Assembly (NCBI GenBank): GCA_021234155.1 | Contig: JAJEKV010000040.1 | Span: 2,829,799-2,893,798, forward strand | Direction: 5' to 3' | Length of the DNA stretch: 64,000 bases | Origin: Isoetes taiwanensis | Lineage: Eukaryota; Streptophyta; Lycopodiopsida; Isoetales; Isoetaceae | Part shown: positions 2,701 to 23,698 of the stretch, piece after piece | Numbering within the stretch: position 1 is the first letter of the stretch | Layout of the letters: the number at the start of each line of letters is the position of its first letter | Position numbers and translations under genes: made by a program | Notes under the pieces: generated by a model | Databases searched by the model: none | What the model saw: only the letters and a program-made list of their open reading frames with translations | What the model was told of the DNA's origin: nothing

Positions 2701-4009
2701 AGCTAAGGGCGATGATGAGAACTCTTGAGGTATGCAATGCTCTTTTACATAATTACTATATCATTCATAACATGAAAGTTACAATAGACTAGTTATTATT
2801 TGTTACGCTCTGCGTTTTCCTTCTCAACACAAGAGCTCTTACACTATACAATGCTAAACAAAGTGATTCATTCATCTTCGTGGATCTGTAGTAGTGATCC
2901 CCGATATCTCATAGCTCATTCGGCCGAAGCCAAATCAGATGGATCATTACACAAATTGACGCAGTGGCAACGAATCTCACCCAAAAGCTTTTCTTCGCGG
3001 TAGGGATCAAGAAGAAGATGCCTGTCTAGGCAACCAACAAGATCGAGTGGCTCATTGAGCACTTGATCGCCTCGATGTGGTGAATTGATGAAGGCAAATA
3101 ATCCATGTGAGAGGAATGAACTTTAGCCCCGGTGAGAAGCTTTTATAGTGAGGTAGAATTATTGAGGTGAATTATTGGGGTAGACTTTGGCCATTATTGC
3201 TCGTGTATAAGACCGTTGTATAAATACAAGTATAATACATCTTTTCGTCGACGGATATATGTATGCGTACTAATATGCGTATGTTTCAAAACATGTTTGC
3301 TTGATCAATTTAGCTATGATTGAATTCAATGACGACTGCGTAGAATAAGTGGAGGTGGGATAGCACATCGTTACAATATACTCGCTTAAGGTAATGTGAT
3401 ATTACATCCTTAATCGAATGCTATTACATCCTTACTTAGTTATTAGGTACCCATGTCATTATTACATTATTAGCAGGTGCAGATTCACTCGTCATCAACA
3501 TCATAGCTCGTGATGCCATTCAGCTCATAGATCTCCTGATCGGAAGCCGATAAATATGGACTTTAACGCGAGTGAGCTTCCTCGCAAGCACTAGCGTGTC
3601 CATCGCCTTTAGATAAGAGCCATGGATCAAGCTTAACGCTATTTCTAGCGCATTCGCCCAGATCGTTGTAGCTCAAGTAACACTTGAAAGAGCGGATGTG
3701 CTCTGGACGAGGCATCGAGGAAGCCATGGAAGATGAATGGCCTCTACCCCCTCGTGAAGCCATTTTTATAGTGAAGTAAAATTATTGAAGTGAATTATTG
3801 GCGTACGATGTAGGGCCATTATTGAGCTTATACGAGTGTCATGTACACGTACAAGTATAACACAAAATTTGTATGTATATGTGTATGTTAATTACCTCAT
3901 GTTTGTTGGGGTCGAGTACTAGGTGAAAGTATTCGTGCTTGAGCAAATAAGGTGTGCTCAAAATTCTCAAAATTGCGTTATTTTATCCAATTAATGAAAT
4001 CATGCTTTT
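2701..4009. other. gene-poor spacer
   Basis: This is AT-rich sequence without a supported gene. Two stretches near 3120-3230 and 3765-3860 resemble each other (both carry GTGAAGTAAAATTATTG-like text, then CCATTATTG and a run with GTATAA and ACAAGTATAA), so a diverged repeat is likely. Short open frames on the minus strand at 3563-3763 show no recognisable domain. Confidence 0.4.
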
Positions 4010-4241
4010 GAGGTCAGTTGTCGACGTTATGGTTGGAAGCTGCCTAGTTATACTGACTTAGAAGCAGCTGGTTTGCATTCTCATGATGACCTTTATGATG
4101 GGTTTCGTATGATTTGTTCAAAATTATCAAGAGAGGATACTGGTTCTCAAGTTTATGCAAAACTTGCAAATAAGAAGCCTAAAGGCACTCAGAGTTGTTC
4201 TAAATTATTGAAGAAGAAAAAAGATGCTCCCAAATGTATAG

Positions 4242-6872
4242 ATGATCCACAAAAGAAGAAAAAGAAATCTCAAGAAGAGTGGCAAGGAGAAATCTCAGGA
4301 TTTGGGGAAGCAGAAAGTGGCAAAAAAAAGAGGCACAGATGCCAATGCCGTAAAGATACCAAATGCAAATGATAGAGCCATAATTTGCTTACCAGAAGGA
4401 TCATCAAAGGATGCTATTATTGATGTTTTGCCATTAAACATGAAGTCAGATGATGGAAAAAAGGCTATGGGTAGTGCAGCAAGTTCAAAGAAGAAGAACA
4501 AACAGGAACTTAATACTGAAGAGGCTGTTAAAGAAGATTCAAAATATTTTATATTCGGTTTTCTGCTTCCCATTATGATTAATGTTCATAACTGCATCAT
4601 TCCTGACCTTAGTAAATCTAAGAAGTTTGCGCAATGGAATTATCGAAAATTCAATCCAAGTCATGTTCAGTGGCTGAGGAATGAAATGTTGAGGCATCCT
4701 ACTAGCACTCCAGAGACTGTTGACTTGTTGCCTATAGATGCTACTACATTGCGGCCTCTTTGTGTAAAGAATTTGGATGAAATTTGCAGCAAAGAGATGA
4801 GGTTTGTAGTAATAGCCGGTCAACATTCTATGAGGGCGATGCAGTTGCTTTCAAATGAAAGTCCAAAATACAAGAGAAGGTGGGGCATGCGCGCAGCTAG
4901 GATCATTGCTCATGACACACCAATGTTAAAGCTAATGGAAATCTCGTCAGAGGCGAACAAAAAGAATGAAAAGAATAAATTTGTCTCACCTTTTCTAGAC
5001 CAGTTTGAGCAGGCTAGGGCACAATGGGAAATTATGAAATGCCCTACAAAACCAGTTCAAGGAAAGGCGACCAGTGCAGAGTTTAAGGTGATCCTTTCGT
5101 TTTATTCCTTTTTTGCAATTCAAATTCACGCATCCAACATGTGAAAAGTTAAAGTCTCTAAACATTTAAATGTTCATGATTCAACTTCCAACTAGTGTTG
5201 GAAGTTTCTAACAAATATAATTTTATCATGTAGGAGTTTGGTGAAATTGCAAAAGTTACATTTGGAGGTAAGGCATCAGTTTCTGTGATCTACAACCTTT
5301 TAACAACAGAGAGAAATATATTTGATAAGTGGAGCAAAGCTATTGATCTGTATAACAAGGGTGATTTGCCGGATTGGCAAGGAAATACTGGAGGTGCTAG
5401 AAGCGGAAAGGAGATAAACTTATCATTGTTTCGTTGTACACAACAACTAAACATTAAGGAATTAGAAGATGTTGCAAATGCATTACTGAACGGCTCAATT
5501 ACTTGGAAGAGCAAGAAGGCAAATGAACGGGGGCTAGAACATGTGGCAGAGTATGCTGATCGGATGAAAGAGTGTCGAGTACTAAAGAAGGGCATCTTAA
5601 CTCATATGAAGAATTATACACGTGACCAGAACTTGACTTTGTCAAAGTTATTTGCAGAAAGTCCTACAATCGCTTCCTCATGGGAACAGCTTAGAGGCTA
5701 TTGTTCAGCATGGTGCAAAGAAGTTTTGGATAAAAGTAAAAGTAGTAGTATGCCAAGCCTCGCTACTGATCAGCTTGAAGCCATGTGGGATACAGATCAT
5801 GGGCATGTTAGAATGGACCATAAAGTTGTTGTTGTGTACAACATAGGACCAGGAGTCACAAAGACGAGAGATGTAAGGGTCTTTGAGAAAGGTTTTTTAG
5901 ATTTAATTGTAGTTCACACACAAGAAGGATGGAAGAAAAAAGATTTTGAAGACATTATTAGTTTGGTGGCTGATATCAATAAAGAGGTATGTTGTGATAA
6001 AGATTTATAGTTTAATATCTTATAGTTTCATATTATTTCTTATAGTTGTTGCATCTTGGTTTTTTAATTTTTTGCAGAGCTCTTATTCTTATCTGTTTTT
6101 CTTAACACCGCACGAGATACATGATTGCACAGAAACCTTAAATGCTATTGAGGGCAAAGTACAAATTCTTTTTGGTTACCATGAGACTAATGCATCAGAT
6201 AAAGGCGTCCTCGCGCTAAAGACCCTTGTTATTCTTGCACGTGTTTCAAAGGATGCAAAAGGATCATTGCAATCACTATTGTACAAGGATTGTTCATTAT
6301 ATTTTCGAACAGAAGATCTAGCTCCAGATTATGATCCAGTTTTGCAGGTTGAGGATTCTAAGCAGTTGGATTTATATCTGAAACCTATGAGCTATTCAAT
6401 GGCCAGTGGATTGCAAGGTGGCGGGATAGTAAAAGATACAATTTTGAGAAATGCTACACTTAGATTTATTGATCCTCTCTCCAGGCCGAACCAAACAATA
6501 GTGGAGGTTAATTGCGGAGGCAATGTTGCTTGGGAAGCGTTGCTTCTTGGAAGACAAGTGATAGTCTTAACAAATAATGCTATTCAAAAGACTGCAATTG
6601 AGTCTATTATATCTGAGTTTTCAAAGCTATCTCTATTTCACATACTCAAAAAAAGGGTGCAGGCAGATTTACATATATCAAATGAAGTTCAGGAACTGGA
6701 ATCTACATCTACAGCTTTTAAGACTGCACAGCAAGTTTTGTCTACATCTTCTCCAAAAAACCATCATCCAATTAAATTGGGATTATGTCAACTCCAAAAT
6801 CACGCCAACCTGCTATTGTCTTCTAGGGGGTTTTTGTTTTTTTTAACCTTTTTTTTTGGACTTCAAAAATAA
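4242..6872 (+). CDS. ParB-like domain fused to a degenerate beta-class DNA methyltransferase fold
   Basis: Three exons, 4242-5087, 5234-5986 and 6078-6872, join in frame through GT..AG introns (GTGATC..TGTAG; GTATGT..TTGCAG) to give about 797 residues. Residues 1-110 are lysine-rich and basic. Residues about 120-270 resemble a ParB/DGQHR-type domain, with VVIAGQHSMRAMQLL around residue 193 in the place of the usual GQHR/GERR loop. Residues about 440-720 read like a permuted (beta-order) amino-methyltransferase: FLDLIVVHTQEGW near 505-515 sits where DPPY (motif IV) should be, and VEVNCGGNVAWEALLLGR at 675-692 resembles motif I, the SAM-binding loop. The catalytic DPPY is absent, so I infer a pseudo-enzyme or altered activity. 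An upstream open stretch from about 4010 to 4372 in another frame also looks coding (lysine-rich), so an earlier exon or a frameshift near 4215-4265 is possible. The last residues are low complexity. Confidence 0.6.
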
Positions 6873-7095
6873 CATAAGGTTGCGATTCACGTGTGACTTT
6901 TCATATGCGAATTGAAATATGCAGAAATGAAGAGCAAGTTGCTAACATAGATGAGACCAAAATTGCTTGCTCGATAGATGATAATATTAGGTTTGATAAC
7001 AACAGATTGCATTATTTGCGAGGCAATTCCAGACTCGAAATTATCGATACATGGCACAAATATCATACAAAAATATCATATATTCCAATAAAACA
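6873..7095. other. short spacer after the ParB-methyltransferase gene
   Basis: The run begins just after a T-rich tract that ends the upstream gene. I see no gene, no clear poly(A) signal and no repeat in it. Confidence 0.3.
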
Positions 7096-7735
7096 TTAAG
7101 GGATCAATCCATGTTTTTTCCACGTGTTTAACAAGGTGTGGTTCCATGTCGGCCGTTCTATCCAGTTAAGGTACAAATCTAACACTTCACCCACCGTCTT
7201 CCCCATAGCCAAATTATGCATAATAGACACAAACTTCACCGAGAAAATCATCACGTCGCAAAGTTTTTGGATCGTAAGATGGTGGATTCGGGGCTGCGTT
7301 TGATTGTAGAAGCATTTGAGAGCATCATCATCCACTATGATTATATCATCCTTATTCTCGATACCAAGTTCGGCCCATCATGTTACTCAAGTGTTTGATG
7401 AAGATAGGCTTGCCTGTTGGATCCTTGGGATTAGTGAACTTCACACATTTGTTCGATCCCAAAGGGTCAACCAATGTCTACGATTTCCCCGGTGCCTCCA
7501 AAGTATCCTTGATATTCCTTAGTTCCATGGATGACCAAATACCAACTCGAAATAACCCTTGAATGCCTCGTCTAGCATCTCCTTCAAGTGCGGCGGATAG
7601 ATCCACTTGGTGTTTGATTCTACTGGTGTCTGATGAAACTGTTCTCTAGCCACTTTATTTTTCGGAAAAGTCTTGCAAAGGACTCCGTTTAGGTCGAACA
7701 CCACAACCTTCTTAGAAACGCAATGGAAGCTGAAA
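7096..7735 (-). pseudogene. HAD/FCP1-like phosphatase domain, broken copy
   Basis: On the minus strand, from a possible 3' splice site near 7720, the frame reads KKVVVFDLNGVLCKTF, which is HAD motif I in the plant DLNG form (the second Asp of DxD is Asn). Further on come LKEMLDEAF and FELVFGHPW, then in other frames NKCVKFTNPKDP and KPIFIKHLSNM. It ends with DIIIVDDDALKCF near 7330, the acidic motif IV. At least two frame changes and stops lie between motif I and motif IV, so it is dead. It belongs to the same family as 20041-20915. Known members of the family (NLI-interacting factor-like, FCP1 homology) dephosphorylate serine in proteins such as the RNA polymerase II tail; activity here is not expected. 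Confidence 0.65.
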
Positions 7736-8166
7736 CATCAAACATGTATCCGGTCAGAAGATCACGATAACACAAACAATACAAACCGCCAAAGCGTGAT
7801 TTGAAATAGTCATAACCAAATCGGCTTCGGCGTGATTTAGTTTGACAACGAAAAATAATCAAAGCGCTTGGCGATTTAATTCAAAGGTAATACAAATTAA
7901 ATCACGCGTGGCGCTATTTCGTGGGCAAGGCCATACCTATCATCTTCGAGTTTATTGCCATCGCCATCGCCATTCTCCCCTTCACCACCCTTAATCTTCG
8001 TCTTCTTCCATTTGTTAGAATTGTTATTTTCTAATAGTTCCGGCTTCGCGTCCTTCTGGCCCGACATTATTTTACTATTGATTTGGCAAACCTGTGAATC
8101 ACTAGAGCCGCCGTTGCCTTCATTTTCGGTTTCCCATCCAATTACTTCATTGTTAACTTTGTGAAT

Positions 8167-11100
8167 CTACTCATTGTTGCTTGCATCACCCCCAATGTGG
8201 GCAAAAATATTCCCTAAGTTCGCCGCCATCACAGTACTTTGAGCATCCAGTTTAGCAGCTATTTGTTCATTACTGCTTTCCTTATCAGGCTGCAGATTAC
8301 TAGGTCCCTCACCAGAAGCAACGTCCACTTTCGAATTGGACAAGTCTACGAGACTTTTGATTGCTGATGATTTCAGGTTGCCATAAGGGCCTTTAGGAGA
8401 CTTGGCAAGCACATGCATGAGGAATGGTTCAAGAAAGTCTTTGGCATGCTCATCACTCACAAAGCATTGACATCTTCTTGCACCCATAAGAGCCTCTCGG
8501 GCAATATAACCTCAACATGAAGCTCCAAGCGGGTTGTATCAATTGGAGCAAATGCCTCGGCGAGGTAAGCAGCCATAGACGCGGAAATCCATTTTTATTT
8601 AAGGGCCCTTCTCCTTAGTTTGTAGCTCGTACTTGATTTCCCCACTTAGGAGGGGGTCCCGATCCTCATCCTCTTCTGACTCATCCTGTTCTGACTGATC
8701 CCTGATCCGTATGAAAGAATATAGTTCTTAAGTCCGGATCATCTAGAAGAAAAAATATTCCCATGCACCGCTATTGTCACCCTTAGCCTTAGCAATATCA
8801 TATTAGATAGCCCGATAGCATGGCTATCATAATGAAGATCACATGTGCCATCTTTAGATCTTTGTTCGCAGCTCATTATCCTTAACATCATATATTAGGC
8901 ATCCCTCCCTAATAACTTTGAGGCACTCCGGATCATGAGCAGCGGCCGGATAGTGCATGCGCATGTGACTCACCTGAAGGACAAACGATGACAATAGTGA
9001 AGGACCTCTCGGTTGTCAATCCTATACAATTTGGTAAAGAAGTCAGCCAGAGTCCTTCCTCGTTCATGCCCATATCTCCTCTCCCACCCCCGCTGTCCAA
9101 CACAAAGAGTGATATATTTTTAAGGCCGGTTGATTACGCAAGAGACCTTTGTACCCAATGGAGACTGAATACTGGACAGTGTCGTCTTCTCCAGTAATCT
9201 TCTTCACAAGGGCCACTTTTCTTCTCAACTCAGCCAGTACCTTAGGGGGTAGAGTCTCCTTATGTTTTGTATTTTTAGCCTTCCAATTCTTTAGGAAGTC
9301 CTTTGACCGAATACAAACTTCTTGATGTCATCATTACTGACCTTGTATTTGTCCAGCAATCCAATTTCAGATAATGCCACATCCCCCGATAGCCTTTGTA
9401 ACTCAGCTCCTACAGCTGACTTCATTGTACGTACATCCTTTACATGACTGCAGCACTCAACGAAGGACATCCTATCCTTGGTGAAAGCACCCTTCTTGTA
9501 TAAGACTTCCTTCTTTAAGCATCGGTCTAAAACCCAAATGGTCTCGGCGTCGTCTAGCCTAGCCCCCGAGTCTTTCTCATCTCTGTCACATTCAAGTCAA
9601 ATATGCTTACATCAACGAGGCACCCTACCCATAGTGTCCGGCAGCTTCCCTTGTGCATAAAAGCGTCCCCAGCATTCATTCTACTTGAGCCATACTTGCC
9701 TCCTTACAAAACACAATCTTATACGAAGTCTGGTCCCGACCTCTTTGGATGAGCTTTCATAAGGATCTGCAATGTCATCACCACCTTTTTCTTTGATTTT
9801 CTTGCGGTCTTCTTCTTCTCAGTATAATTATGCATGACGAGAGTCCGCTCCAAAGAGCTTGAATGCCTCGGACTTTGACCATACATGCGGTGGGCAATGG
9901 GCAGCCATATTCCACCCATCGTTGATTCGGGCGTGGCGCAGGTTGTTCAACGTATGGACTGCAATAGTACGGAACATTGAATCAGATATCATAGAATAGA
10001 AACACGTACGCGCGCGATTTGAATAGAATTGATCAAGAGAAAATCACGCCCGGGCGTGAAATGAATAAAGTTACTAATGCAATCCACGCCAGGTGTGCTT
10101 TAAAATCAAATCAATTCACGCCAGGTGTTTTCAAATCAATCGAATTCACACCGCCAGCGTGTTTTTCGAATCAATTGGTTGACTTGAAAATGCCTCGGGC
10201 GGAATTCGATTGATTTGAAAACACGCCTGGCGTGAATTGGTTTGATTTGAAAACACGCCTGGCGTGAATACAATTTATGAAACCAGGTAGATTTGAAAAC
10301 ACGCCTGGCGTGAATTCGATTGATTTGAAAACACGCCTGGCGTGAATATTAAAATGCATTGGAATAGATGCAGTTAGTTACCTTTTGTATAGAAATGTCT
10401 TCCCCATTTCATTCAAAGTTGCGCTAATCTCAGCCAAATCTGCGGGTGAAGTATTGGCATCCAAGATCGACACCTCCTATAATGATAGTGATTGTAGAAC
10501 GCGGCGTTTTGGCCTGCTTTGTTCGGCTTTTGCTGATGAGGGCCTTCAGGCCTCAACAGAATGCTTTGCCCGTCGATGACGGCCAATTTAATATTTTCAT
10601 TTAACATTAACTCCTACGGAAGTTCGCCACACACAAGGGGCTTGTTCTGAGATCATATCCCAAGGTAACACATCCGGCCGGCATAGGCATTTGACCGGAT
10701 TACTAATCATGCTCAACAATCTCCATGGCATGTCTTTGGATCATATCTTCGCTAACATAAATGGAGTTTGGTGAACGGATGAGGGACTTCACATGGATCG
10801 CAAAAGTTTCCTTAAGACCCAATGGATAATGGTCGAGTATTTATTCACTTGTTCATCGCCTCTAGTTTGCGCCACTCATCTGTTCATTCTCAAAAACGAA
10901 GCCTCCATGCCTTCGACAACCTGCAGGTTGAACATCCTTCCCTAGATCTAGGACCCTCTTAGAAGCTTTCAAGTCAGCTAATTCCCTAGCTTGCGCAAAT
11001 AGTGACTTGGTGTCGGTTTAGTGAACATGCCTCTACGCGACAAAACCGTAACCCCTTGGCAAATAGATATTGGCGTAATCGCTACATTGGTTGGCCAACC

Positions 11101-11400
11101 ATACTTAAAACATGTCTCACCGCTCACATCTGTCTTCATGAACGTATCCTTGTATGAAGTAGCTCTACAAAGGAGTAAGTCCGGAAAGCGATCTTTCTTA
11201 CCGCTTACGGTAATCTCCAAGAGCAATTTGCGGTTGGTGTCATCCTCTTCCTCACAAGAGATTAGGATCCCTTGTTTGGCCATCTTGTGCGCTTCCTTTT
11301 TCCTCGAGAAGAGAGTTAAGTCGAGCTTGCCATTTGTCTTGGCAAGGTCAACGTACCACTCGCACCCTCGCCCATTTCCTCTTCAGGTGTGCAGTGGTCG
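8167..11400 (-). pseudogene. Decayed multi-exon coding region of unknown function, upstream of the HAD domain
   Basis: Several minus-strand open stretches have coding character but no recognised domain: 11390-10978 (CEWYVDLAKTNGKLDLTLFS, then ISCEEEDDTNRKLLLEITVS), 10607-10480 (NIKLAVIDGQSILLRPEG), 9919-9230 in shifting frames (RFYAQGKLPDTMGRVP, AETIWVLDRCLKKEVLYKKG, GLLDKYKVSNDDIKKFV) and 8487-8167 (SDEHAKDFLEPFLMHVLAKS). All point the same way as the HAD domain at 7096-7735, so the whole may once have been one gene ending in that domain, or a mobile element with several genes; this is inference. Palindromic CACGCCNGGCGTG repeats interrupt it at 10045-10344. Stops and frame changes are frequent. 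Confidence 0.4.
10040..10345. repeat. Cluster of CACGCCNGGCGTG palindromes in a short direct repeat
   Basis: The perfect palindrome CACGCCCGGGCGTG lies at 10045-10058. Degenerate forms follow at 10085-10097 and 10117-10129. Four identical CACGCCTGGCGTG copies lie at 10222-10234, 10254-10266, 10300-10312 and 10332-10344. Most are preceded by TTTGAAAA and followed by AATT, so the local unit is about 32 bp, with one 46-bp interval. Confidence 0.85.
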
Positions 11401-11921
11401 TGGTTGCTATAAGAATCGCCCTTCATCATCTAAGGTGAGATCATATGGTACGCATCTCCGGGTCGCCTCGCCCTTGCTTTCTTGGCGGATTAGAACCCGA
11501 ATTATTAGGGTTTTCTTCCTCTTGAGCAACGCAAAAGAAGATGAACACTTTTTAGAGTACTTTTCGAACAAAGAGATCACGCTTGGCGTGCATTTAAACC
11601 TAAATTAGTACAAATCACGCTTGGCGTGTTGGTAGCTCCTATTATTGACCATGCTATGCGTGAATTTGAAACTAATTTATTTTGCATCCACATTTTAAGC
11701 TACATACCCTTCATGAATCCATATTTCACACTATTTATCCTCATTGAACATTGCTATCTCCAACCGCCTAATACCGCTATATTCTATATATAAAATGAGC
11801 AAAATTATGTTCTACTGATCGGACAATCGAGCATTAACTGATGTTAATACTTAAAATTCATGCAAAGCATAATAACTCAAACTCATGCAAAGCATATTAA
11901 GTGAAAGGAAATATCTCAAAT

Positions 11922-12110
11922 TCATGCAAGCATAATACTCTCCACACAATGTGTATTCTGTGGCAAATTAAATACCTTGAATAGGGTTCTGTGTATTCTG
12001 TGTATTCCGATCAACGCCCTCTCAAGCTTGAGAAGTGCGGGGTTTTGGGATTCCTCTTCCACCGCTTCCTCTGCCCGGCCCTTTCGACCTCGATTCGCTT
12101 TAGAAGACAT
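11922..12110 (-). CDS. Hypothetical short reading frame, possible first exon
   Basis: The 62-residue frame begins MSSKANRGRKGRAEEAVEEE and continues with LLKLERALIGIHRIHRT. The basic then acidic start followed by an amphipathic stretch looks like protein, and the minus-strand sequence upstream (12216-12110) has no competing ATG in this frame. No domain is recognised. It could be the first exon of the decayed minus-strand gene below 11400, or unrelated. Confidence 0.25.
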   Translation of the reverse strand: MSSKANRGRKGRAEEAVEEESQNPALLKLERALIGIHRIHRTLFKVFNLPQNTHCVESIMLA

Positions 12111-12216
12111 CTCCGAGTTGCCTAGTAACAGAGTCGGAAGGTCGCTTTCGGATCTGGCCTTTCGAAGCCGCCGAAGAAATAGCTTTTTCTACATTGCGAG
12201 AAATAGAGAAATTTGA

Positions 12217-12815
12217 ATTTCAAGAAAACACAAAATGCAAGCTTCAAATATTCTTGACACATACAAATAATAATGACGAAGACCCGTCCATGACTTCTTT
12301 CATTAAGTTTTTAAAACCAATCTATCCAAAAAGTATCCCTACCAAATTTATCCCGCCTAAACGTAGTTAACCTAATTTTCTTCTAATTCAATTTCCCCGA
12401 CCGCCGAGTTTCCATAGCGCCTTGACTTCTCAAATCAACCGGAGACTCAAATCAGCTTCTCAAGAATGGCTACAAAATTCTGGTACTCATCTCATTCCAA
12501 TAGCTTGAACATTAATTTCCAATAATAGGTGTCTCAATAGCAATTTTTTTTAAAGGTCGAAGATGAATGTTTCATGTTAACTACAAATCGAAAAAGGAAA
12601 GTAGGATTATGCAAGATCGACTCCATCGATCCGATTATAAACTGTCATGGAATTCCGCTTCGGGGATAAGTATGTCCGAAGTTCTGATGATTAATCACTT
12701 GCGCTATGGATGAAGCTTTACCTCGCAGAGACACCCTTAGGGGATACTTCTGGAGAAAGTGTTGGAACATTTGTTGCATGGCCAAGAAACCGCTTAAAAG
12801 GGTATGTAACATGTA
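12217..12815. other. gene-poor spacer
   Basis: Mixed AT-rich sequence with no convincing gene, no strong repeat and no RNA gene that I can see. Confidence 0.3.
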
Positions 12816-13560
12816 TTACATTGTAGAAATATAGAAGTAGACAAAATTTGTTGTATTCATTGGAAAAAGATTACAATTGTATATAATCTCGGATAAACCG
12901 GATAAACCGACAAAAAAATCCCGGACTCTTTGTTTCAAGCCCGGTCTCATCAGTAGCCGGGCTATCGATCTCCCATTTCCATTGCGGGGCATAGTGAATT
13001 CTTCGTAAAACCCCAAAAAAACACCAGGCTCTAGCTCCACCACCCCCGCCCGCTCCACCTCCACCTCCTCGCTCCTGCTCTGCTCACTTTGCTCCATTGG
13101 TTGAACCTCCAATGCATCGTGATAGCGCCTGCGTAGTGGTTCCATTGGTTGAGCCATCTCCATTGCATCGTATACCGCTTTGTGGTAGTGGTTCGTGTTG
13201 GGGCATCCGGGCATAGAGGCTAACCACTAAGAAAAGCAGCTCCTCATTTTGAATCTCGAAATGACGGATCACGAGATTCACTCTCGATCAATGCATGTAA
13301 TCGTGCATTCTCGGTGATTAGATAAGAGGGCCAGCCTCCGTGCGTTTGCAAGGGCCCCCGAGCCCGATCTATCATTGCCCTGCGCTTCTGCTGCCATCAT
13401 CATTACTTGATCCAAGTACTCCGGGGTTGCAAGATCGGTGCTCCAGCAGGACCGGTGCTCTACCGCGGTTCAACCGGACTGGAGATTGGAGCCGAAACTG
13501 GAGCTGGGCTGTGTGATTGCTGGCCCAAATGTAATTCCAATGCATCTTCGTCACCAACCG
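12816..13560 (-). CDS. Hypothetical minus-strand coding fragments
   Basis: The best frame, 13214-12816, reads YDAMEMAQPMEPLRRRYHDA then LEVQPMEQSEQSRSEEVEVE, ELEPGVFLGFYEEFTMPRNG and RPGLKQRVRDFFVGLSG. An internal near-repeat (DAMEMAQPMEPLRRR versus DALEVQPMEQ) and a Ser/Glu-rich patch are visible. A second open stretch upstream, 13557-13372, is in another frame. I recognise no domain. It may be a decayed element gene, since it lies between palindrome-rich repeats. Confidence 0.3.
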
Positions 13561-13744
13561 GGTGATTAATGTAACTTGGCATCTATCAATAGGAAGTGAG
13601 CGGAGTATCAGTATTCACGCCTGGCGTGTTATATTTATTTATTTATAAACTTAGAAACGAAGAGACACGCCCGTGTTTTAGCGTAAAAGTTGAAAGTAGG
13701 GATACAATTGTTTGCATGCGGTGTAAACCGCTATATAGGAAAAA

Positions 13745-13925
13745 ATTATACGCTCGTGCATTATTCGAGGGAGGAAAAAAAGCATGCAGATATAGATAAG
13801 TAAATAGATAAAGGCCAGGCAATTATTAAGCGTGTAAATAATTGCCTGGCCTTTATCTATTTACTTATCTATCTGTACAGTTTTTTTTTCTCCCTCTCTG
13901 CTGAGTGCACGCCGAGCGTGTATTC
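13745..13925. repeat. Long inverted repeat (hairpin), about 80-bp arms
   Basis: The left arm ends GGCCAGGCAATTATT at 13827 and the right arm starts AATAATTGCCTGGCC near 13836, leaving a loop of roughly 8-10 bases. The inner 40 bp of each arm match except for a 2-base indel (near 13790). Pairing continues outward with more mismatches through the A-run/T-run and GAGGGAG/CTCCCTC to about 13745 and 13925. A CACGCCGAGCGTG palindrome sits in the right arm at 13908-13920. Confidence 0.85.
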
Positions 13926-14499
13926 ATGTTGAAGGCTAAGGTTAGCATAAAACACGCTTAGCGTGTTTCAAATATTATCTTTCAGATTTTTCTATTGCTT
14001 TCTACTACACTTATTCATAATAGAAACTTGCATGCAATAGCATGATTAATTCAGGAAGAGAAACTCAAGAATTTACTCGAAACAAAAAGAAGCAGATGAA
14101 GTTTATAAAAAACTATTCTGGTTTTCATAAACATCATCTGCTTCCTCTGCCTCGAGCAAATGCAAAAGCTTGTCTTCTTGGATTAAACCTGCCATTGAGA
14201 TGCAACTTAAAACTAAATGAAAACTAACCTTGAGTCCTGAGGCTGGAAGGATTCGAAGAACGGAGGACTATGCTTGTCGTTTTAATTCCGAGGCTTTTCG
14301 ATTCGCAGACCTTAGTCCTCTGCTACAGATGCTACAGAACTAAAAGGCGGAGTCTTTTAGTAAGTTAGGAATTGCCGAAACCAAACATCTAACATTGCTG
14401 AATATAAATCTGCTCACCAAGATTTCAGGAGGGCGGATCCAAACACAGCAGAAGCGCAACCGGCAAATCGTATGAAGGAAGGAAGAAAATGTAGGAACT

Positions 14500-14660
14500 T
14501 TGAGAGCGTAAAATGGATTTATATAGGCATAATTAGAAATAAGTTAGCGTGAATAATTGATTGCTTGAATTAACACGCCTGGCGTACGGTCTTCCCGCCA
14601 GACATGACATGTATATGGTATATATGGAGAATATTGCATTTCATGCAATAAATTCTCACG
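14500..14660 (-). promoter_or_regulatory. Duplicated TATA promoter segment, copy 1
   Basis: The minus strand carries TATATAAA at 14518-14525 followed by GCTCTCAAAGTTCC. On the plus strand, TTAGCGTGAATAATTGATTG, a CACGCCTGGCGTA palindrome (14574-14586) and a TTCCCGCCAG block follow. The same order of blocks recurs at 15728-15870, next to the acidic-protein gene. No intact gene is seen downstream here (14490-14050, minus strand), so this is probably an orphan promoter copy. Confidence 0.55.
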
Positions 14661-15393
14661 GCATTTTATTCCATTTATTGCATTCGAAAAAATAGAATTT
14701 AGAAATTTTATATAGGCTAACTTAAAAATGATTTTAAAGGCAAAGTTATCAAGGCTAAAAAATGACTTGTAAGGTTGGGGAATTGTTTTAGGTCGTATAG
14801 GAAAATTTCCTATGGTTACTGTGATGCATCAGAGATTTCTCATGTGGTTGATTTATAGTGTTCCCGAGACTTTGTTGAGACAAAGTTTGCAGATACAAAA
14901 TTTTAGAGAGACAAAATTTGCAGAGACAAAATTTTAGAGAAAACAGCTTGGAGCCAAAATAATTGGAGAATACAGTTTGATTTTATTCAAAAAAATTTAT
15001 GTACAGAAAAACTGTTTGAAGAAAATTGTTTGAAGACAAAGTTTATGAAGAAAACTGTTTGATTTCATTAAAAACAGTTGTATGTACAGATGCCCGAAGG
15101 CTTAGGCGATTGCCAAGGCTTTTCACACAATTCTGAGAAAAAAAATGCCCTGAGGCGTGTCCAAAACTTCGTAAGAATGGAAACAAAAAAATGGGCCGGG
15201 GATGCGCATCACTCTTCTTCCACTTTGCAACAAAGAAGAAAGAAAGGTGTTAGAAAAGAAAGAGAGGTGCAAAAACAAAAAAAAAAAAAAAAAAAAAGAA
15301 ATCACATGCAAACCTGGTTTATCTCTCAACCACTCCAAAAACGGTGTTGTCGACCCTTCTTCCGAATCTTCCTCCTCCTCCTCCTCCTCCTTC

Positions 15394-15699
15394 TCATTCT
15401 CTTTGTTTCAAAGCCAACCCCCGAAGCGGGCGGTCCACGTGCTCTTGGGAGGACATCTCCTCCTCTTCCTCCAACTCCTCCTCTTCCTCCTCTTCCTCCT
15501 CTTCAGAATCAGAGGAATCAGAGGAGCTCAACTCCTCCTCTTCCATTTCGAAATCAGAATCATCCTCTGAATCGGAATCAGAGGAGAATTGGGCAAGAAA
15601 ATCTATGAGGGGGAAGAGAGGGGGCTCTTCAACCCGACGTCTCTTTGACGAGACCTCGGGTTCTTCATGAAGTTCGAAGCCCGAGGCTGAACGCTTCAT
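15394..15699 (-). CDS. Acidic Ser/Asp/Glu-rich protein, N-terminal part
   Basis: The frame starts at the first ATG (15699) about 47 bp below a TATATAAA box (minus, 15746-15753). The protein begins MKRSASGFELHEEPEVSSKR, with SKRRRVEE as a likely nuclear localisation signal, then PLIDFLAQFSSDSDSEDDSD and a run of more than 15 glutamates. The frame stops at 15394. A shift of one base inside the GAG repeat would reopen it into EEDSEEGSTTPFLEWLRDKP, ending at a possible 5' splice site (AAACCAG then GTTTGC) near 15320. Acidic low-complexity tails are common in histone chaperones and chromatin proteins, but I recognise no domain and give no function. Slippage in the repeat may have broken the gene, or the reading may be affected by sequencing error. 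Confidence 0.45.
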   Translation of the reverse strand: MKRSASGFELHEEPEVSSKRRRVEEPPLFPLIDFLAQFSSDSDSEDDSDFEMEEEELSSSDSSDSEEEEEEEEEELEEEEEMSSQEHVDRPLRGLALKQRE

Positions 15700-15727
15700 G
15701 GCGAAAAAAAATTGGGGACGAATGGTC

Positions 15728-15870
15728 TTGAGAGCGTGAACCGGATTTATATAGGGTTAATTAGCTCTTAGCGTGAATAATTTATTGCCTCAAATAACAC
15801 GCCAGGCGTACGAAATTCCCGCCAGCTATATTATCTAGGGTATATTATTATGGATAATAAATTCTCACGT
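15728..15870 (-). promoter_or_regulatory. TATA promoter of the acidic-protein gene (duplicated segment, copy 2)
   Basis: The minus-strand TATATAAA at 15746-15753 lies about 47 bp upstream of the ATG at 15699. Upstream of the TATA box are the TTAGCGTGAATAATT block, the CACGCCAGGCGTA palindrome at 15798-15810 and TTCCCGCCAG, in the same order as at 14500-14660. Confidence 0.6.
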
Positions 15871-16282
15871 CTATTAGTTATATGTCTTTTCGTAATCATA
15901 TATCCAAATTTTCGATAATTAAAATTTGGATATATTTATATAAATGTCATTTCCTTGTTGTTGCCATGAAAATTCTTGTTTTAAATGATTTCGTTTACGC
16001 CCATTGTTATTATTATATTAAACCTATTTCCAAGGAATTTCTTGCTTTTAAAAAATTTGATTTACCTCTACATATTCCATAAATGTACATTTTTTTTTTA
16101 TCTTATGGTGTAATAATTTTTTCTTACTCATTGACTAAAAAGGGTGCAATTTGCCTAGGTCAATGGTGCCTCTCCAACTCAAGATGGTGTGCAACATATT
16201 GAAAAAAGAGCAATATCAATGAAAAACCAACTCCTAGCAAGAATGTTGAAGAAAAACAATTAGTCCTCTATAGTAGGGTGCA
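15871..16282. other. AT-rich spacer
   Basis: AT-rich sequence with a T-run near 16090. An imperfect inverted repeat around ATATCCAAATTTT and AAAATTTGGATATA lies at about 15899-15935. No gene is seen. Confidence 0.4.
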
Positions 16283-18941
16283 ATGGAGGAACAAGAAGGT
16301 GAGAATCATGCACAAGTGCAACAAGGAAATAGTAGGCCAAGGAGTCATTGTGCTAGCGATCCCGGTCAAGCTGTTAATGATGAAAGGCTAGGGAAGACAA
16401 TATTGGTATTGCAATTTCGATGTTGGAAGACAACCGGAAAGGTAAAGGTTTGGGTGACAAGGAATGTTTTGGTTGTGTCAAGCAATTGGAGTTCCTTGCA
16501 TCATGGCATGGCCTATAAGTAGTGTTCAATTTGTGGAGGATTATATTTTTCGAGCCCGAGGTTGTTGGGGACAATGATTGTCTTGATATTGATCCATTGG
16601 CGGTTGGAACTCTAAACCTAGGCAAAAGGGGAGAAGTATCGGTTGCCGGACATTATCCTAGCAAAAGAGCCAAGTTGATTAGTGACACCAAACGTGAGAC
16701 AATGGTGAAGGTTAGGGGCTCAGATTGTTGTTGGAGTGATTGTATGCAATTCTTCACAATAGAACAATTGGTGGAAGCAAGAGCCACTTTTCAAGAGTAC
16801 AATCGCTGATGAGAGGAGGACCTACATGTACACAATCTTCGAAAGCATGCACTTCAAGATGAAAGAAACCCAAACAAAAAAAGATACCCTTTGCTAGGCA
16901 AATGGATATGTGCAAAAAGCATGGCGAGTATCCATGCAATTCCAACTTCTTCATGGCATAATTGGCAAAAAAAAAAAAAAGAGGGGAACAGGATTGCTTT
17001 TACATGGAAATAATGGTTTGTTGAGACCAACAAATAGGACCTTGGTCAGCGGGGAGATATTTGAAAAATATATTGATTTCAATGCGAGAGTCTATGCCAC
17101 ACAAAAAGCGAAGGGATGAAAAGGGAAGAGTAGTTGTTGAGAAAAGGTTGCCATCACATTGTACTCAAAAGAGTATTTTGGAAGAAGTGAATTCCCTACT
17201 TCGAGAATTGGGAATTCTTCCAATATCCCAACCTAGCTTTAGTAGGTTATGGAAGAAGCATTTCAATCATGTCACCATAGCAACTTCAAACAACTTTGCA
17301 AAGTGCAATTTATGTGCTAAGTTGAAGGAGACTCTTGATAAGACTGTGCAACCTAGTCAAAGGGCTAGGATAAGGGAGCATATGAAGGACCATATGACTG
17401 ACCAACTATCATATAGATCATGTTATTGGATGTGGAGGACTTTATCTGCATTGGAACCCAATAACTATTTATGTATTATACATGACAAGATGGACCAGCA
17501 AAAGACTTGTCTTCCACAATTCAAGTACATACCAAAGTCATGTGGAAGATCATACCCTTTACGTGATCTCAATGATCAGGGCAATCTTGCATGGGCGTAA
17601 TCAAACCTACTATGGCCATTTTAGTTTGGAGTTGTGGAGTGATGGTCCGATTTTCATATTGGGAGTATCATGAGGTGTTTGAGAAACTATGAAAATGGAT
17701 ACAATGGTCACCTCCAGACCTTCTGACTAGCCGGCACTACATAGAGCATTGTTAGATGGAAACCTAACAATATTGAAAAGTTCAGCAAGGCAAGGTTTAG
17801 GAAGCATGGGTCTAATAAACATGTTGGAGCTTCAACTTCGCGTGCTAAACCTCAAGATCTACCCAAAAGGTTTCTCTTGCAACTTGATAATTGTGCTGGC
17901 CAAAATAAGAACAGTGGATGTTTTCTTTCCTATCCTACTTAACATTTTGTGGGGATATTTGAAAGAGTTAATTTAGGGTTTCTTATGCCCCGCATATACC
18001 CATGAGGATGTGGATGCATTATTTGGCAAATATAGTTGTATAATTTGAAGCAACAAAGGACCAACTTTCCTAGGCTAATGGAAATCTTGCATGAATGCAC
18101 TACTCCAAACCCTATAGCTTCTCTCATAGAAGAAGTGCCCGATTGGAAGAGCTTTGTGGATGGTTATACATTGGATCTTGAAGGTCATTCCGTGCCTCTC
18201 GCAGTTCACTTTTTGGGTGAGAGATGGGATTCCAATCTTCCAATGGAAGATGAGACCTTCGAGAGGATGAGTGGAGAGGAGGGAGGAAATATGGCGTAGA
18301 GATGAGAATGGCAAGCCTATGATACCTCTAGGTCAACCAAAAGCTTTAAAACCTCATCAAGAAGTGAAGCAATTGGGATTGACTAAGGAAGGAATCCAAG
18401 ACTATATAAAGCATTGGCAAACCAATCCGTGATGACACCAACCGCGTGCCTTGGTGGCTTTCTTGGAAAAGAAGGTGATTAACCCGTTGGGGAGATAGAC
18501 ACATCCTCGGATGAATTGAAAGAAGGGTGGTTGCCTAAAACTAGGTGGAAGACCTTAGCGGTCTTTGAGGATTTTGATGACACCGTAAGTAGCATTCGCA
18601 AAGCAATATGCTCCTCCTCCTTCGACAAACACTATGTTGGTCCTAAGAACAATAGGCCAAAGTTTCTAGGCATGGATGCTTATGAACCTTCCAATCGACT
18701 TGGAATGCCACCAATTTGTGGTAGTAAAGCCATCAGATTTAGATACATATCCAAAGTGTGGTTGGGGTTCACTATCTCCTCGATATTTGCAAAGAAGAAG
18801 GTAATATTAACTTCAACCATGTGCGGGGTGGAATGGTGGTGTCCAAAGCATCGGTTGACCAACGTGTCGGATAAAGAAAGGTACTCGATTGTTGGACAAA
18901 GAAATGGAGGAGAAATCAAAGTGATCCTGATCTTTGGCTAG
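16283..18941 (+). pseudogene. DUF7869-type transposase-like relic, copy 2
   Basis: Better preserved than the copy at 1-2700. Blocks in order: GSDCCWSDCMQFFTIEQLVE near 16720; ESMPHKKRR near 17090; SFSRLWKKHFNHVTIATSNN then FAKCNLCAKLKETLDK near 17240-17345 (likely zinc-binding cysteines); NYLCIIHDKMDQQKT near 17465-17510; QTYYGHFSLELWSDGPIF near 17605; a broken LLQLDNCAGQNKN block near 17880-17910; THEDVDALFGKYS near 18000-18035; EEVPDWKSFVDGYTL near 18130; and HYVGPKNNRPKFLGMDAYEP near 18630. The acidic residues of DKMDQ, LQLDNC and HEDVD are candidate catalytic positions by analogy with DDE/D integrases. An A-run near 16966-16980 and several stops break the frame, so it is inactive. A HAD/FCP1-like pseudogene follows on the same strand. 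Confidence 0.65.
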
Positions 18942-19268
18942 ACTATGAAAGTGTTTTGTACTCATGGACTCCAAACACTATTCCAAAATAGAAATGCGAG
19001 AATTACAATACCTCAGGATGTCAGGAAGAAGGCTATGATATCATTGGGGGTGCTTGAAGAAAGTTGAATAACTATGTAAATTTTTGTTATCACGTTTTTA
19101 TGATATGGTGCTATATTGTGAAATATTGACTATTTTGTAAATAACATGATATTACGTTTTCATAATTTTGAGGTGAAATGTGTGAATTTGAATATGCTAC
19201 TAAAAACATGCAATATGAAATTTGTCCCAAAATTAAGACATAAACCCAATTTAATTGAATGATGGTTA

Positions 19269-20915
19269 AAAGAGCTTTCTCATGAAGATGCTTTTAATGA
19301 GGAAGATGAAAATGTTGATGCAGATATAGAGGGGAACATGCAAGAAGATGTAGAGGAAGAGAAAAATGTAGAATCACATGATGTACAGTCCCCGGTAGGA
19401 AAGAAAGAAGCCATGCTGAAGTCCGGAGACCAGGATGCAGAACATAAAAATGAAGACCAAGATGTAGAACATAATGGGGGAGAAGAACATGAGGTAGAGT
19501 TACAAGAGGAAGGGTTGCACCGCCCGACGCTTGCAGACAAGGAAGTTAACGAAAATCCAGGTGAAAATCTTTTCCATGTTCATAAAAGAAATGTATTATG
19601 TTCTAGAGCTTACGGCTCTACAAGTGATTTTGAGGTTAAAAGGATGTTAGATGACATTCAACTTGATGAATATGGTTCAAATTTGACCCTTGATGTAGTT
19701 GAAGCATAATGTATCACTTCGAACATATGTTCGATGTTTCAACTAATTGTTTTTTGCATTCGTAGGAATATGATGATGGTCGAATCAAGGAACCCGAGCC
19801 TATTTTCTAAATGTCCAGAACATCTTTATGTCCAATATATGTTGTAGATTTCTTGTCATTGGAAAGACAAGAATGAGATGGTTTTATTATTACACAGTTC
19901 GATTATCTCAATCAATCATAAAATGCTATTTTCATATCCTCTACAATTGATTCTTATGTGATGAACTAATTGAATAACTCTCAATTTGTTAATAGATATG
20001 GAAGTTGTACAAGCAACACCAATATTTTAACAAGGCTCGAGGAAACTTATTATTCTTGATATGAATGGGGTTCTATTGAAATGTGTATGTTTGGAAGATA
20101 AAAAACATGAGATCATAGTCAGACCGAACTGTCTTGCTTTTATCGAACACCTTCTAAAGTTTGCAGAGGTTGCAATTTGGACAACAATGTCTGAGACAGG
20201 TTTATTGACTTGCTTGGAAAAGATTGTGCCCAATGACAAGGTCTTCAAATTCTTATGGTGTCAAAGAAAATGCACAAATTTAGGTTATGATGAGCTTTTC
20301 CATAAGAGGCCATTTTTTATCAAAGATCTCAAGAAAGTATAGAGGCAATATCCAGAATATAGTGTGCATAACACTATTATGGTTGATGATGATTACAGAA
20401 AATCAGTTCGAAATCCAAAATATATTGCCTTGCATCCTTTCCAATATATGGGGAACAAGGAAGACAACTTTCTAATGAGATTTTTATTGCCTTATCTACA
20501 AGAAGCATGTAGTTATGGAAGCACACAAGAGTTTCTCCGATGTAATTTCAAGAAAGAGTTTTTTCGTGAAAGATGGGAAGAAGTTTCTGATGATGTACAC
20601 AAGTCTTTATATTATGCTCAAGAGTATTGGGCACCTCGAGAGAATGCTGGATCAGCTCGTGGATCTGAAACAAAGACTAATTTCACGTATAATGATTGTA
20701 GTGATAGTAAAGGAAGCAATTCTCGTGAAGTTAGACAACATGGTCAGCTTAGAGCTTCTCATGTTAGAAGGCATACAATTACCAACAGCCAAGTTAGAAT
20801 GTCTAATGCTGCGGCAATGTTATTGGCCTTAAATTCAGGATATCAAGGTAAACGCATCAGTGCAGGCTTAGCAAGACGATATTTGGGATCTAAATTGGGG
20901 AAAAAAGATGGTTAA
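19269..20915 (+). pseudogene. HAD/FCP1-like protein with acidic N-terminal region
   Basis: An acidic, low-complexity segment at 19269-19709 (MQEDVEEEKNVESHDVQSPV; repeated EDQDVEHN-like units) has a possible 5' splice site near 19695 and an acceptor at about 19765. The HAD exon begins near 20034-20041: KLIILDMNGVLLKC (motif I, D encoded at 20058-20060, with Asn in place of the second Asp), VAIWTTMSETGL (motif II), RPFFIKDLKKV, then an in-frame TAG at 20340-20342, then RQYPEYSVHNTIMVDDDYRK (motif IV) and NPKYIALHPFQ. The C-terminal tail to 20915 is basic, ending SAGLARRYLGSKLGKKDG. Apart from the single TAG the HAD part is open, so it may be a recent pseudogene. Family members are protein serine phosphatases; the DMNG/DLNG form is known in plants. 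Confidence 0.7.
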
Positions 20916-22050
20916 TAGCTTGGATTCTATCTAGCCATCTCTATTGTACAAGTTTTTCTTAAGTGTACAATTTTTAAAGAAATTTGATCATTGTATATTC
21001 TATTTATATATTCATTATAATATAATAGATGTCCAATTCAATAAGAAAAAGAAATACATCCCAAATGTATAGTCTTAACAACAATTTGATCATTATACAT
21101 TCTATTTATCTGTTTATTATAATATAGAATAGATGTCCAATATTTGTCATAATCTAACATTCTATGTTCCACCTTTACTCCCTTGGAAAAAGATATGAGA
21201 AACTATATTTGGATGCACTATCATCAAATTAATTCTTATCTAGAGTCTCTTATGTTTGGAGTATGTATATTTAGTGCTTCAGGCTCATATTTTCAGGGCC
21301 TCGTCTTGTGCTTACATTGCTAGTTGAGACATGTACTTCTTGTATTCCTAGTTTTGATAAATAAACTTTCAGAAAAAAAAAGGGAGAGAGAGCACATGTC
21401 GATAATATAATATCCTCTTTTAGTTATATACTAGTAAACGTGCGCCCGGCGTTGCCATTGTACTAGTAGGCCATTATATATTAGTAAACGTATACCCGGC
21501 GTTTCGAATGGAAAAGATTGTACTATTGTCCTTCAAGATTGTATATAAAAATGTGCAAAAACACATCAGTTAGACTTGAATAAGTCTAAATTTTGCTAAA
21601 TATATCATAATATGATAATTTTATTTAGTCTCCGTAACAATAAACTATATGATATGTACTACTATTTAGTATGTCAACTTTAGCAGACTGGTATTTGATC
21701 GCATCTATCGTCTCAGTATATTGACATGGTAATTTTAAGCGCATACTTATCATGATGCTCTACAATGATTAATCAAAAATATACAATGTGGTAAACACAC
21801 TTGCTTTAAATATGCTAATGTGATTTTTTTCCTTATTTTTCTCCATGGTACTAAACCGTAATTATTTCAGTTAGTTTTTCTAATGGCTTCTTATGCTTGA
21901 ACCGAACTAATGCAGTATATCAAATTTAATAGAATGGTATTCGATCCATCTATCTTCTTCGGTAGATTTGACTTGGGTAAATTATTCGGGTATTTTGTAG
22001 TAATTAATGGACAACGTATTGATGGTAAATTGACATAGTGCAATGGTAAA
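20916..22050. other. gene-poor spacer with small repeats
   Basis: There are AT-rich diverged duplications (ACAATTTGATCATT-type text with a CATTCTATTTAT motif near 20975-21010 and 21090-21115). Near 21430-21510 a short direct duplication carries TAGTAAACGT and CCCGGCGTT twice. Two tandem copies of a 21-bp unit containing GGTAAATTGACATAGTGCAA lie at about 22023-22064. No gene is seen. Confidence 0.5.
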
Positions 22051-23098: not shown

Positions 23099-23143
23099 GC
23101 AACATCCCAAAGCTAACACAACTTGAAACAAACAAGACGAAAT

Positions 23144-23698
23144 ATGGAGACGAAAAGAGCGAGTTTATGCATTGCTGTGTTTATGTTGATACTGCTCCAG
23201 AATGTGATGGCATACCGTCATGTTATTCAGGAAACTGTGGGCGCTTCAAAGGTTAGCAATGTAGTGTTTTATGTGCACAGCAAGCTCACAAAACCAAATG
23301 AAACTGTGGAAGTAGTGGCCAGTTCAGATGATGACTATGAGACTACCACTAAGTTTGGAACAATTGGAGTAGGAAATATTGTGCTCACTGCAGAGCAATC
23401 CAACAGCTCAAAAGTAGTGGGCAGGCTTAAATCTATGGTTATCATTGCTGACACAGTTTTCACTGATTATCCTCATGCTCAAGAGCTCCTCACTGCTGAG
23501 CTTGAAACAGAGGAATACAATGGCACCTTGTCTTTGCATGGCAGAGATGTTGCCACTGGTTATGAAATTCCTGTAGTCGGCGGAACTGGTTACTTCAGAG
23601 GTGTAAGGGGTTGGGCCAATATTACTCATGTTGAGTACAATCTGCCTGATTCCACAACTATGATTAATGCCACTCTTGTATATCCCCCCTATTTTTAA
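23144..23698 (+). CDS. Dirigent-family protein
   Basis: An intact, intron-less frame of 184 residues, close to the usual 180-190 for the family. I chose the ATG at 23144; an upstream in-frame codon at 23123 is TTG. Residues about 8-24 (LCIAVFMLILLQNVMAY) form a signal peptide, so the protein is expected in the cell wall or apoplast. The body follows the dirigent beta-barrel pattern: VSNVVFYVHSKL, FGTIGVGNIVLT, LHGRDVATGYEIPVVGGTGY then FRGVRGWANITHVEYN, ending in ATLVYPPYF. Five Asn-X-Ser/Thr sequons (NETV, NSSK, NGTL, NITH, NATL) suit a secreted glycoprotein. Dirigent proteins steer stereoselective coupling of phenoxy radicals in lignan and related pathways, or act in wall barriers; which applies here cannot be told. 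A TATA box lies just upstream. Neighbours on both sides are repeats, so no operon-like context exists. Confidence 0.92.
   Translation: METKRASLCIAVFMLILLQNVMAYRHVIQETVGASKVSNVVFYVHSKLTKPNETVEVVASSDDDYETTTKFGTIGVGNIVLTAEQSNSSKVVGRLKSMVIIADTVFTDYPHAQELLTAELETEEYNGTLSLHGRDVATGYEIPVVGGTGYFRGVRGWANITHVEYNLPDSTTMINATLVYPPYF

Follow-up and report, generated by a model that had tools for sequence, protein, structure and literature searches.

The described system closest to the elements considered here is Sola1-1_Ec32, a 21.5-kb Sola-1 transposon of the brown alga Ectocarpus, in which a gene combining a ParB-like domain with an N4/N6 methyltransferase (MTase) domain lies opposite the transposase gene (PMC12477816). 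There the MTase is described as the predicted maker of N4mC or N6mA, similar proteins of green and red algal transposons are cited (Iyer 2011; Petroll 2025) as a possible class of transposon accessory proteins, and the algal ParB-MTase proteins are suggested to attach to the DNA of their own element and mark it epigenetically. The Sola superfamily, as characterized in PMC10741241, has 4-bp target site duplications (TSDs), a DDD transposase and variable terminal inverted repeats (TIRs); some members exceed 15 kb, and the superfamily is present in the moss Physcomitrella. Second genes acting on epigenetic marks or silencing are further described, in PMC12730594, for TET/JBP-carrying fungal transposons and for the VANDAL Mutator regulators.

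Fusions of ParB with N6/N4 MTases are also encountered in bacteria and phages (phage loci L137-L140), and these share with ORF2, the gene treated here, the order ParB, helical region, MTase motif IV, and then motifs X and I. The catalytic motif IV of N6/N4 MTases is (D/N/S)PP(Y/F/W), which the bacterial fusions used here keep, having been selected for it. No bacterial or phage ParB-MTase fusion is known to carry a NIF domain. The catalytic motif of NIF/FCP1 phosphatases is DxDx(T/V). The regulators of VANDAL Mutator elements bear the name VANC; their likeness to ORF2, and that of the TET/JBP transposons, is a functional analogy only, the proteins being unrelated as far as is known.

The locus described here lies in a stretch of 64,000 nucleotides of the lycophyte Isoetes taiwanensis (the window), and the whole assembly of 1,658,258,908 bases was searched for its relatives. 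Like Sola1-1_Ec32, the Isoetes elements are large DNA transposons with a second gene, ParB-like plus N4/N6 MTase-like, opposite the transposase, a likeness of layout and domains. They differ in residing in a land plant, in having lost motif IV and in carrying a NIF-like module downstream, no NIF domain being mentioned in the description of the brown algal element. The 4-bp TSD that PMC10741241 gives for the Sola superfamily is found in the elements of families A to D. No report of this form from a land plant was found in the literature on DUF7869, on transposon ParB, MTase or phosphatase genes and on lycophyte or Isoetes transposons, judged by titles and abstracts, with most subscription papers outside this scope. 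What is new is a land-plant, inactivated and NIF-linked form of a protein type so far known from algal transposons.

The damaged copy in the window

The unit in the window is a damaged copy of the second gene (ORF2) of a TIR transposon, here termed family A, and is no host gene (Table 1). A three-exon frame can be read through GT/AG introns at 5088-5233 and 5987-6077; spliced, it carries VVIAGQHSMRAMQLL, VVHTQEGW and VEVNCGGNVAWEALLLGR, and the GQHS loop, the HTQEG and the motif-I-like stretch EVNCGGNVAWEAL named in an earlier sequence-only reading of positions 4242-6872 are all present. The frames of A2, L018 and family E relatives, considered as reading frames only, are interrupted at the position of the first intron. 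Homology to the family A copy L009 (97-98% in blastn) covers 4008-6758 and resumes at 19268, ORF2 being split at 6758/6759 by a family B element flanked by the TSD AAAA (6755-6758 and 19268-19271); the uninterrupted insertion site in L009 reads CTCCAAAAGAGC. The gene end that had been placed at 6872 is displaced, as its last 114 nt (6759-6872; the last 37 residues) come from family B and the gene resumes at 19268. The proposed start fares no better, for the ATG at 4242 is out of frame with the upstream coding stretch that begins at 3998. Indels near 4285-4300 shift the frame relative to the 98% identical L009, whose frame runs on unbroken, and the NIF exon of the window copy has an in-frame stop at 20340-20342.

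The left TIR (C1046:2814099) and the transposase (C1046:2814278-2815993) of this copy lie 14-16 kb to the left of the window and its right TIR ends at 21608, so that the copy spans 37.3 kb including nested insertions. An exon 2 query gave at least 154 tblastn matches in the same genome when the best 150 of 705 first-look candidates were scored. The unit as first delimited holds the core motifs, and what had escaped notice are the transposase, the NIF exon at 20031-20912, the nested insertion and the multicopy nature of the gene. A functional or domesticated plant gene finds no support, the unit being a disrupted transposon copy; the element-borne pseudo-enzyme, which the earlier reading also allowed, is supported.

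Two further observations concern the window itself. Positions 1-4007, between the ORF2 of the family A copy and the rest of that element, presumably hold further nested insertions, and a 193-aa open frame on the + strand at 23117-23695 is taken by us to resemble a dirigent protein gene.

Table 1. Features of the two nested transposons, in window positions
Feature	Position	Strand	Evidence
Family A copy, section preceding the insertion; covers the final part of the N-terminal region of ORF2 through the MTase-like domain	4008..6758	+	blastn to L009 and other copies
ORF2 exon 1 part, ParB-like domain with GQHS loop	4536..5087	+	alignment with families A2-E; ParB profile comparison
ORF2 exon 2: helical linker and first half of MTase-like domain; HTQEG at motif-IV position	5234..5986	+	alignment; profile comparison
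ORF2 exon 3, first part: second half of MTase-like domain, motif-I-like EVNCGGNVAWEAL	6078..6758	+	alignment, motifs
Family B transposon within family A ORF2, 12.5 kb, 31-bp TIRs AACCATCATYCAATTAAATTGGGNTTATGTC	6759..19267	-	direct reading of TIRs and TSD; uninterrupted site in L009
NIF phosphatase-like domain of family B ORF2 (VVVFDLNGVL)	7096..7737	-	ORFs and motif; homology of this copy judged only from inspection and motif
Family B ORF2, decayed: ParB-like 10834-10381, helical 9963-9252, MTase-like 9127-8392	8392..10834	-	tblastn with B/C sequences as queries
CGCC(0-2)GGCG palindromes, 5 of the 8 in this B copy, clustered in the interval from the ParB exon to the helical exon of ORF2	10047..10344	.	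inverted repeats
Family B transposase gene, fragmented (IIHDKMDQQKTCLPQF)	16519..18941	+	ORFs; longer-frame relatives match PF25273 DUF7869
ORF2 exon 3 resumed after the insertion: acidic linker	19268..19706	+	homology to L009
Family A NIF/FCP1-like phosphatase exon (LIILDMNGVL)	20031..20912	+	PF03031 E 4.3e-11 (first piece); whole stretch 73.2 bits with 1 TAG
Right TIR of family A copy	21575..21608	-	= C1046:2851373-2851406

Transposon families A to D

An intact family A element on C1038 (L026 and L010 joined) is 13,403 bp long, has 34-bp TIRs ATGACGTATTTAGGAAAATTTAGACTTATTCAAG and the TSD TAGA, and carries ORF2 and a transposase-like gene on opposite strands. The TSDs of family B are AAAA (window) and TTAT (C96), that of a family C element on C1042 is GATA, and a family D element on C1028 has a 25-bp TIR and the TSD GACC, where the TIR start can be placed one base either way and a single setting yields the TSD. 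All five family A to D elements that were read at both ends have TIRs of 25-34 bp, some with 1-2 mismatches, and a 4-bp TSD, and a sixth, B-like element with TIRs and a TSD (AGAG) is found on C1066. The label D covers L020, L033, L034 and C1028 as well as L018; the latter forms a distinct lineage, its NIF exon being about 40% identical to the others.

The TIRs are abundant. Genome-wide matches number 42 + 35 for A, 1773 + 1807 for B and 1359 + 1382 for D, with none for the reversed-pattern controls, and the ends of B and D together come to about 6,300 in the 1.66-Gb assembly. Among the matches listed, many adjacent family B ends are in facing orientation at a spacing of about 12.3 kb (C90:66539-78854 is one such pair). 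The TIRs start with AACC in both B and C, and CGTATTTA is common to A and D.

The gene opposite ORF2 matches PF25273 (DUF7869) in family A (E 5.1e-48), in family C (E 1.2e-21) and in the family B relatives L024 and L025 (E 3e-36 and 3.4e-37; 150 of 9700 candidates were scored for such relatives). No DUF7869 match was obtained with the 173-aa transposase piece of family D or with one of the two family C pieces; the D piece has the DKMDQHKTFLPK motif, and the gene is called a transposase in D by motif only. DUF7869 is formally a domain with no assigned function, and its role as a transposase, which its place and motifs suggest, is taken up here as an inference; judged by those motifs, the transposase is DDD/E-like. 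The divergent layout of a DUF7869-type transposase gene and ORF2 recurs in all four families, each of which has complete elements that contain ORF2.

Other repeats and neighbours were recorded beside these features. In the joined family A element a minisatellite (ten 154-bp units, positions 6125-7642) immediately precedes the ORF2 frames, and families C and D have other internal repeats, of 145 and 283 bp. The family C element on C1042 is flanked by frames that by eye are reverse-transcriptase-like and integrase-like (L131 and L132), and these flanks look as if the element sits in or near an LTR retrotransposon.

Architecture and ancestry of ORF2

ORF2 consists of a ParB-like domain with an (A/D/E)GQHS loop, a helical region, a permuted MTase-like domain, an acidic linker and a NIF/FCP1-like exon, which its constant place leads us to infer is spliced onto the rest. 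Ten core sequences (A, A2, B, C, D, L018) can be aligned over their full length; identity to A is 51% for A2 and 20-22% for B, C, D and L018. Residues were compared in 15 sequences.

The direct profile match to ParB and MTase models by which the sequence-only reading had proposed to check itself was not obtained with single sequences. ORF2 itself has no ParB or MTase match among curated Pfam and NCBIfam models: that of families A to D gives none to PF01555 (N6_N4_Mtase) over the curated cut-off, and PF02195 (ParB) has none over its cut-off in ORF2 or elsewhere in the genome. Searches of Pfam, NCBIfam, PHROGs and PDB returned nothing usable, one or two peptide patterns found no homologue in the viral and genome contigs scanned, and the ParB part gave three chance-level matches and no homologue among phages. 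A match to NF002502 (E 3.6e-4, in 2 of 10 members) was set aside on the assumption that it reflects the composition of the acidic linker. AlphaFold applied to the ParB piece of the window alone gave no confident fold (pLDDT 35).

Profile-profile comparison backs the MTase assignment well and the ParB assignment weakly. Against a mixed template of N6/N4 MTases (n = 29: 20 fusion MTase slices and 9 phage or E. coli MTases) the MTase part scores 41.0 in hhalign (E 4e-5, probability 70%; here and below the E-values apply to one pair), and none of 60 column-shuffled templates exceeds 16.2. In this alignment VVHTQE stands opposite TDPPYN and EVNCGGNVAWEALLLGR opposite DAFAGSGTTLLAAAKTGR. The ParB part matches a template of 14 fusion ParB slices and 14 phage or plasmid ParB proteins weakly (score 27.7, E 0.0012, probability 20%; 100 shuffles reach at most 24.4), with the NxR and GQHS/GHxR boxes in register. 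When, as a cross control, the templates were exchanged between the ParB and MTase slices, E was 0.21-0.85. Left out of the templates were SopB, L049 and L135 (ParB) and L041 and L043 (MTase).

These broader templates were picked after narrow ones had failed. The narrow template (34 proteins; the 80 loci had yielded 55 that satisfied length and motif filters, from which near-duplicates were then removed) consisted of alphaproteobacterial fusions chosen for (D/N/S)PP(Y/F/W), and against the whole ORF2 profile it gave P 0.39. Its slices reached E 0.012-0.018, the ParB slice in the wrong register and the MT-C slice beaten by 1 of 60 shuffles. Of the earlier proposal of a ParB-like domain followed by a beta-order MTase (motif IV before motif I) devoid of DPPY, the MTase part is supported, by this comparison and by family F (below), and the ParB part is the weaker.

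Altered active sites and selection

Motif IV reads HTQEG in A, HTDGG in A2, LDSRG in B and C, LNLLE or MNMIE in D and LDLHS in E, and (D/N/S)PP(Y/F/W) occurs at this position in none of the sequences read from A to E, E being represented by one sequence. At motif I, sequences such as EVNCGG, ELHVGG and EWYLNG take the place of DxFxGxG, and G-x-G is missing in A to D.

The NIF/FCP1-like exon is recognized by PF03031 in families A to E with 40-75 bits (cut-off 21.8; E 4e-10 to 1e-20). Its motif is DxNGVL, not DxDx(T/V), in all 20 distinct loci caught by a motif pattern that was run on 41 sources, non-matching sources being left uncounted.

As judged from dN/dS, ORF2 is under purifying selection within families: in A, A2, C and D the core gives ratios of 0.07-0.20 and the NIF part 0.22-0.39 (11 comparisons, with some copies used more than once). 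The single, recent pair of family B ORF2 copies gives 1.3 at dS 0.011, and a family B transposase pair 0.30. Between families the estimates are saturated in four ORF2 comparisons and one of the transposase.

A bridging family in the same genome

A search of the genome with PF01555 (1,444 first-look candidates, 150 scored; the matches listed exceed the cut-off) revealed a further family, F, which was read at three loci: L148 (C976:451678-452409), L149 and L150 (C1066:8250568). The remaining matches are assumed to belong to it. At all three loci the C-terminal exons score 59.9-69.4 bits against a cut-off of 26.7 and have DAFSGSGTT or DNFFGSGTT, and VVADLPYGF is found in L148 and L150. GGNHS occurs in a ParB-like context in L148; L149 and L150 stop short of that region. 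Family F seems to be a multicopy, intact-looking ParB-MTase family with DLPY in a vascular plant genome.

The alignment of the 15-sequence ORF2 profile with F extends over 491 columns (E 8.4e-10, probability 96.5%) and scores 81.0, against at most 27.1 in 60 shuffles and 19.5 for the reversed sequence. HMMER comparison of ORF2 with F gives E 3e-8 for F148, which was assembled from ORF stretches of one locus, and 3.6e-6 for F150, the best of 300 shuffled decoys reaching 0.049; the short piece F149 is missed (E 0.13). Taken as slices, the MTase parts match with E 8.3e-5 and the ParB parts, alone, weakly with E 0.0019 (0 of 60 shuffles in each case), and the cross-slices are at chance (28 of 60 and 31 of 60 shuffles).

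The ends and the transposase of F were not found at the loci read. A transposase beside L150 was first taken for that of F, and the reading of 17.5 kb assigned it to another element with TIRs of its own (C1066:8251660-8259058; L150 and L156; 7.4 kb, TSD AGAG), which begins about 540 bp past the ORF of F and contains a B-like transposase and a NIF-like stretch.

The role of ORF2

ORF2 is almost certainly an element-borne accessory protein, and the reading we favour, which is probable overall, makes it a conserved accessory gene of large (12-13 kb) TIR DNA transposons with a DUF7869 transposase. As the constant partner of the transposase in anciently diverged families it most likely serves the element. 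Descent from a ParB-MTase is very probable from the profile comparisons, and suggests recognition of element DNA; the motifs indicate with good confidence that methylation has been lost in this branch, and this loss, together with the DxN NIF module, suggests a non-catalytic role, either towards host transcription and silencing or in holding the ends together. A regulatory or anti-silencing role is put forward tentatively.

Under the favoured reading, ORF2 would derive from an accessory protein of the algal-transposon kind that bound and marked the DNA of its own element. Base methylation would have been dropped, and the DNA-binding scaffold retained and coupled to the NIF/FCP1-like module. 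The present protein would bind element DNA, perform no catalysis on it, and act on host factors of transcription or silencing, such as the RNA polymerase CTD or the readers of the CTD, thereby keeping the element expressed or presenting its ends to the transposase.

A different possibility, somewhat doubtful, is that ORF2 is a structural transposition cofactor whose ParB-like part recognizes repeats, subterminal or internal, that belong to its own family and holds the two ends of the 12-kb element together for the transposase, with the MTase and NIF domains as mere scaffolds. Both enzyme motifs are indeed altered in the sequences read from A to E (in E this concerns the MTase motif only), and ORF2 belongs to complete elements of all four families. 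The palindrome ACGCCNGGCGT occurs seven times in each of the two family B copies examined and is absent from the elements of A, C and D and from the rest of the window, which makes it, as a guess, a candidate family-specific site; the looser form appears 0-1 times in 20 shuffles of B, and the cluster listed in Table 1 recurs in the C96 copy with 7 of 8 palindromes. Yet most of the palindromes sit inside ORF2 and not at the ends, and the repeats of A, C and D are different ones.

That the MTase is still active through a non-canonical motif IV, the elements marking their own DNA with 6mA or 4mC, is improbable. Homology at the level of the fold and the order of motifs are retained, and family F shows DLPY and DAFSGSGTT in the same genome, but no sequence read from A to E has PP(Y/F/W) and motif I has equally departed from DxFxGxG. 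Still less credible is ORF2 as cargo, a host gene captured by chance. Host NIF genes would be available for capture, since the best PF03031 matches of the genome far outscore the NIF of the elements, and L151, the one read, has the canonical LDLDETL; against this, the same architecture stands opposite a DUF7869-type transposase in families whose ORF2 identity is as low as 20%, and within families ORF2 is under selection. A domesticated plant pseudo-enzyme gene, to which open frames of 251-300 aa and plausible introns might point, is refuted for the window copy by the family B insertion within the coding region, the TIRs at both ends, the frame-breaking indels and the stop in the NIF exon, and has the slightest chance of all, although a separate single-copy locus outside elements could exist.

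Implications

The favoured reading, that of an accessory gene of the element, can be carried a step further, as a conjecture that we consider unlikely as it stands. A self-marking methyltransferase would have turned into a non-enzymatic self-recognition factor; the ParB-like reader of each family would bind its own repeats, and the DxN NIF module would tie the element to the polymerase-CTD machinery and thereby shield it from silencing. If true, this would be an anti-silencing system made of two dead enzymes. Both states of the design seem to be present in the Isoetes genome, family F with DLPY on the one hand and, on the other, families with a lost MTase active site and a phosphatase-like partner that are kept by selection, and with both states in one genome it may be tested which part of the protein the transposon needs.
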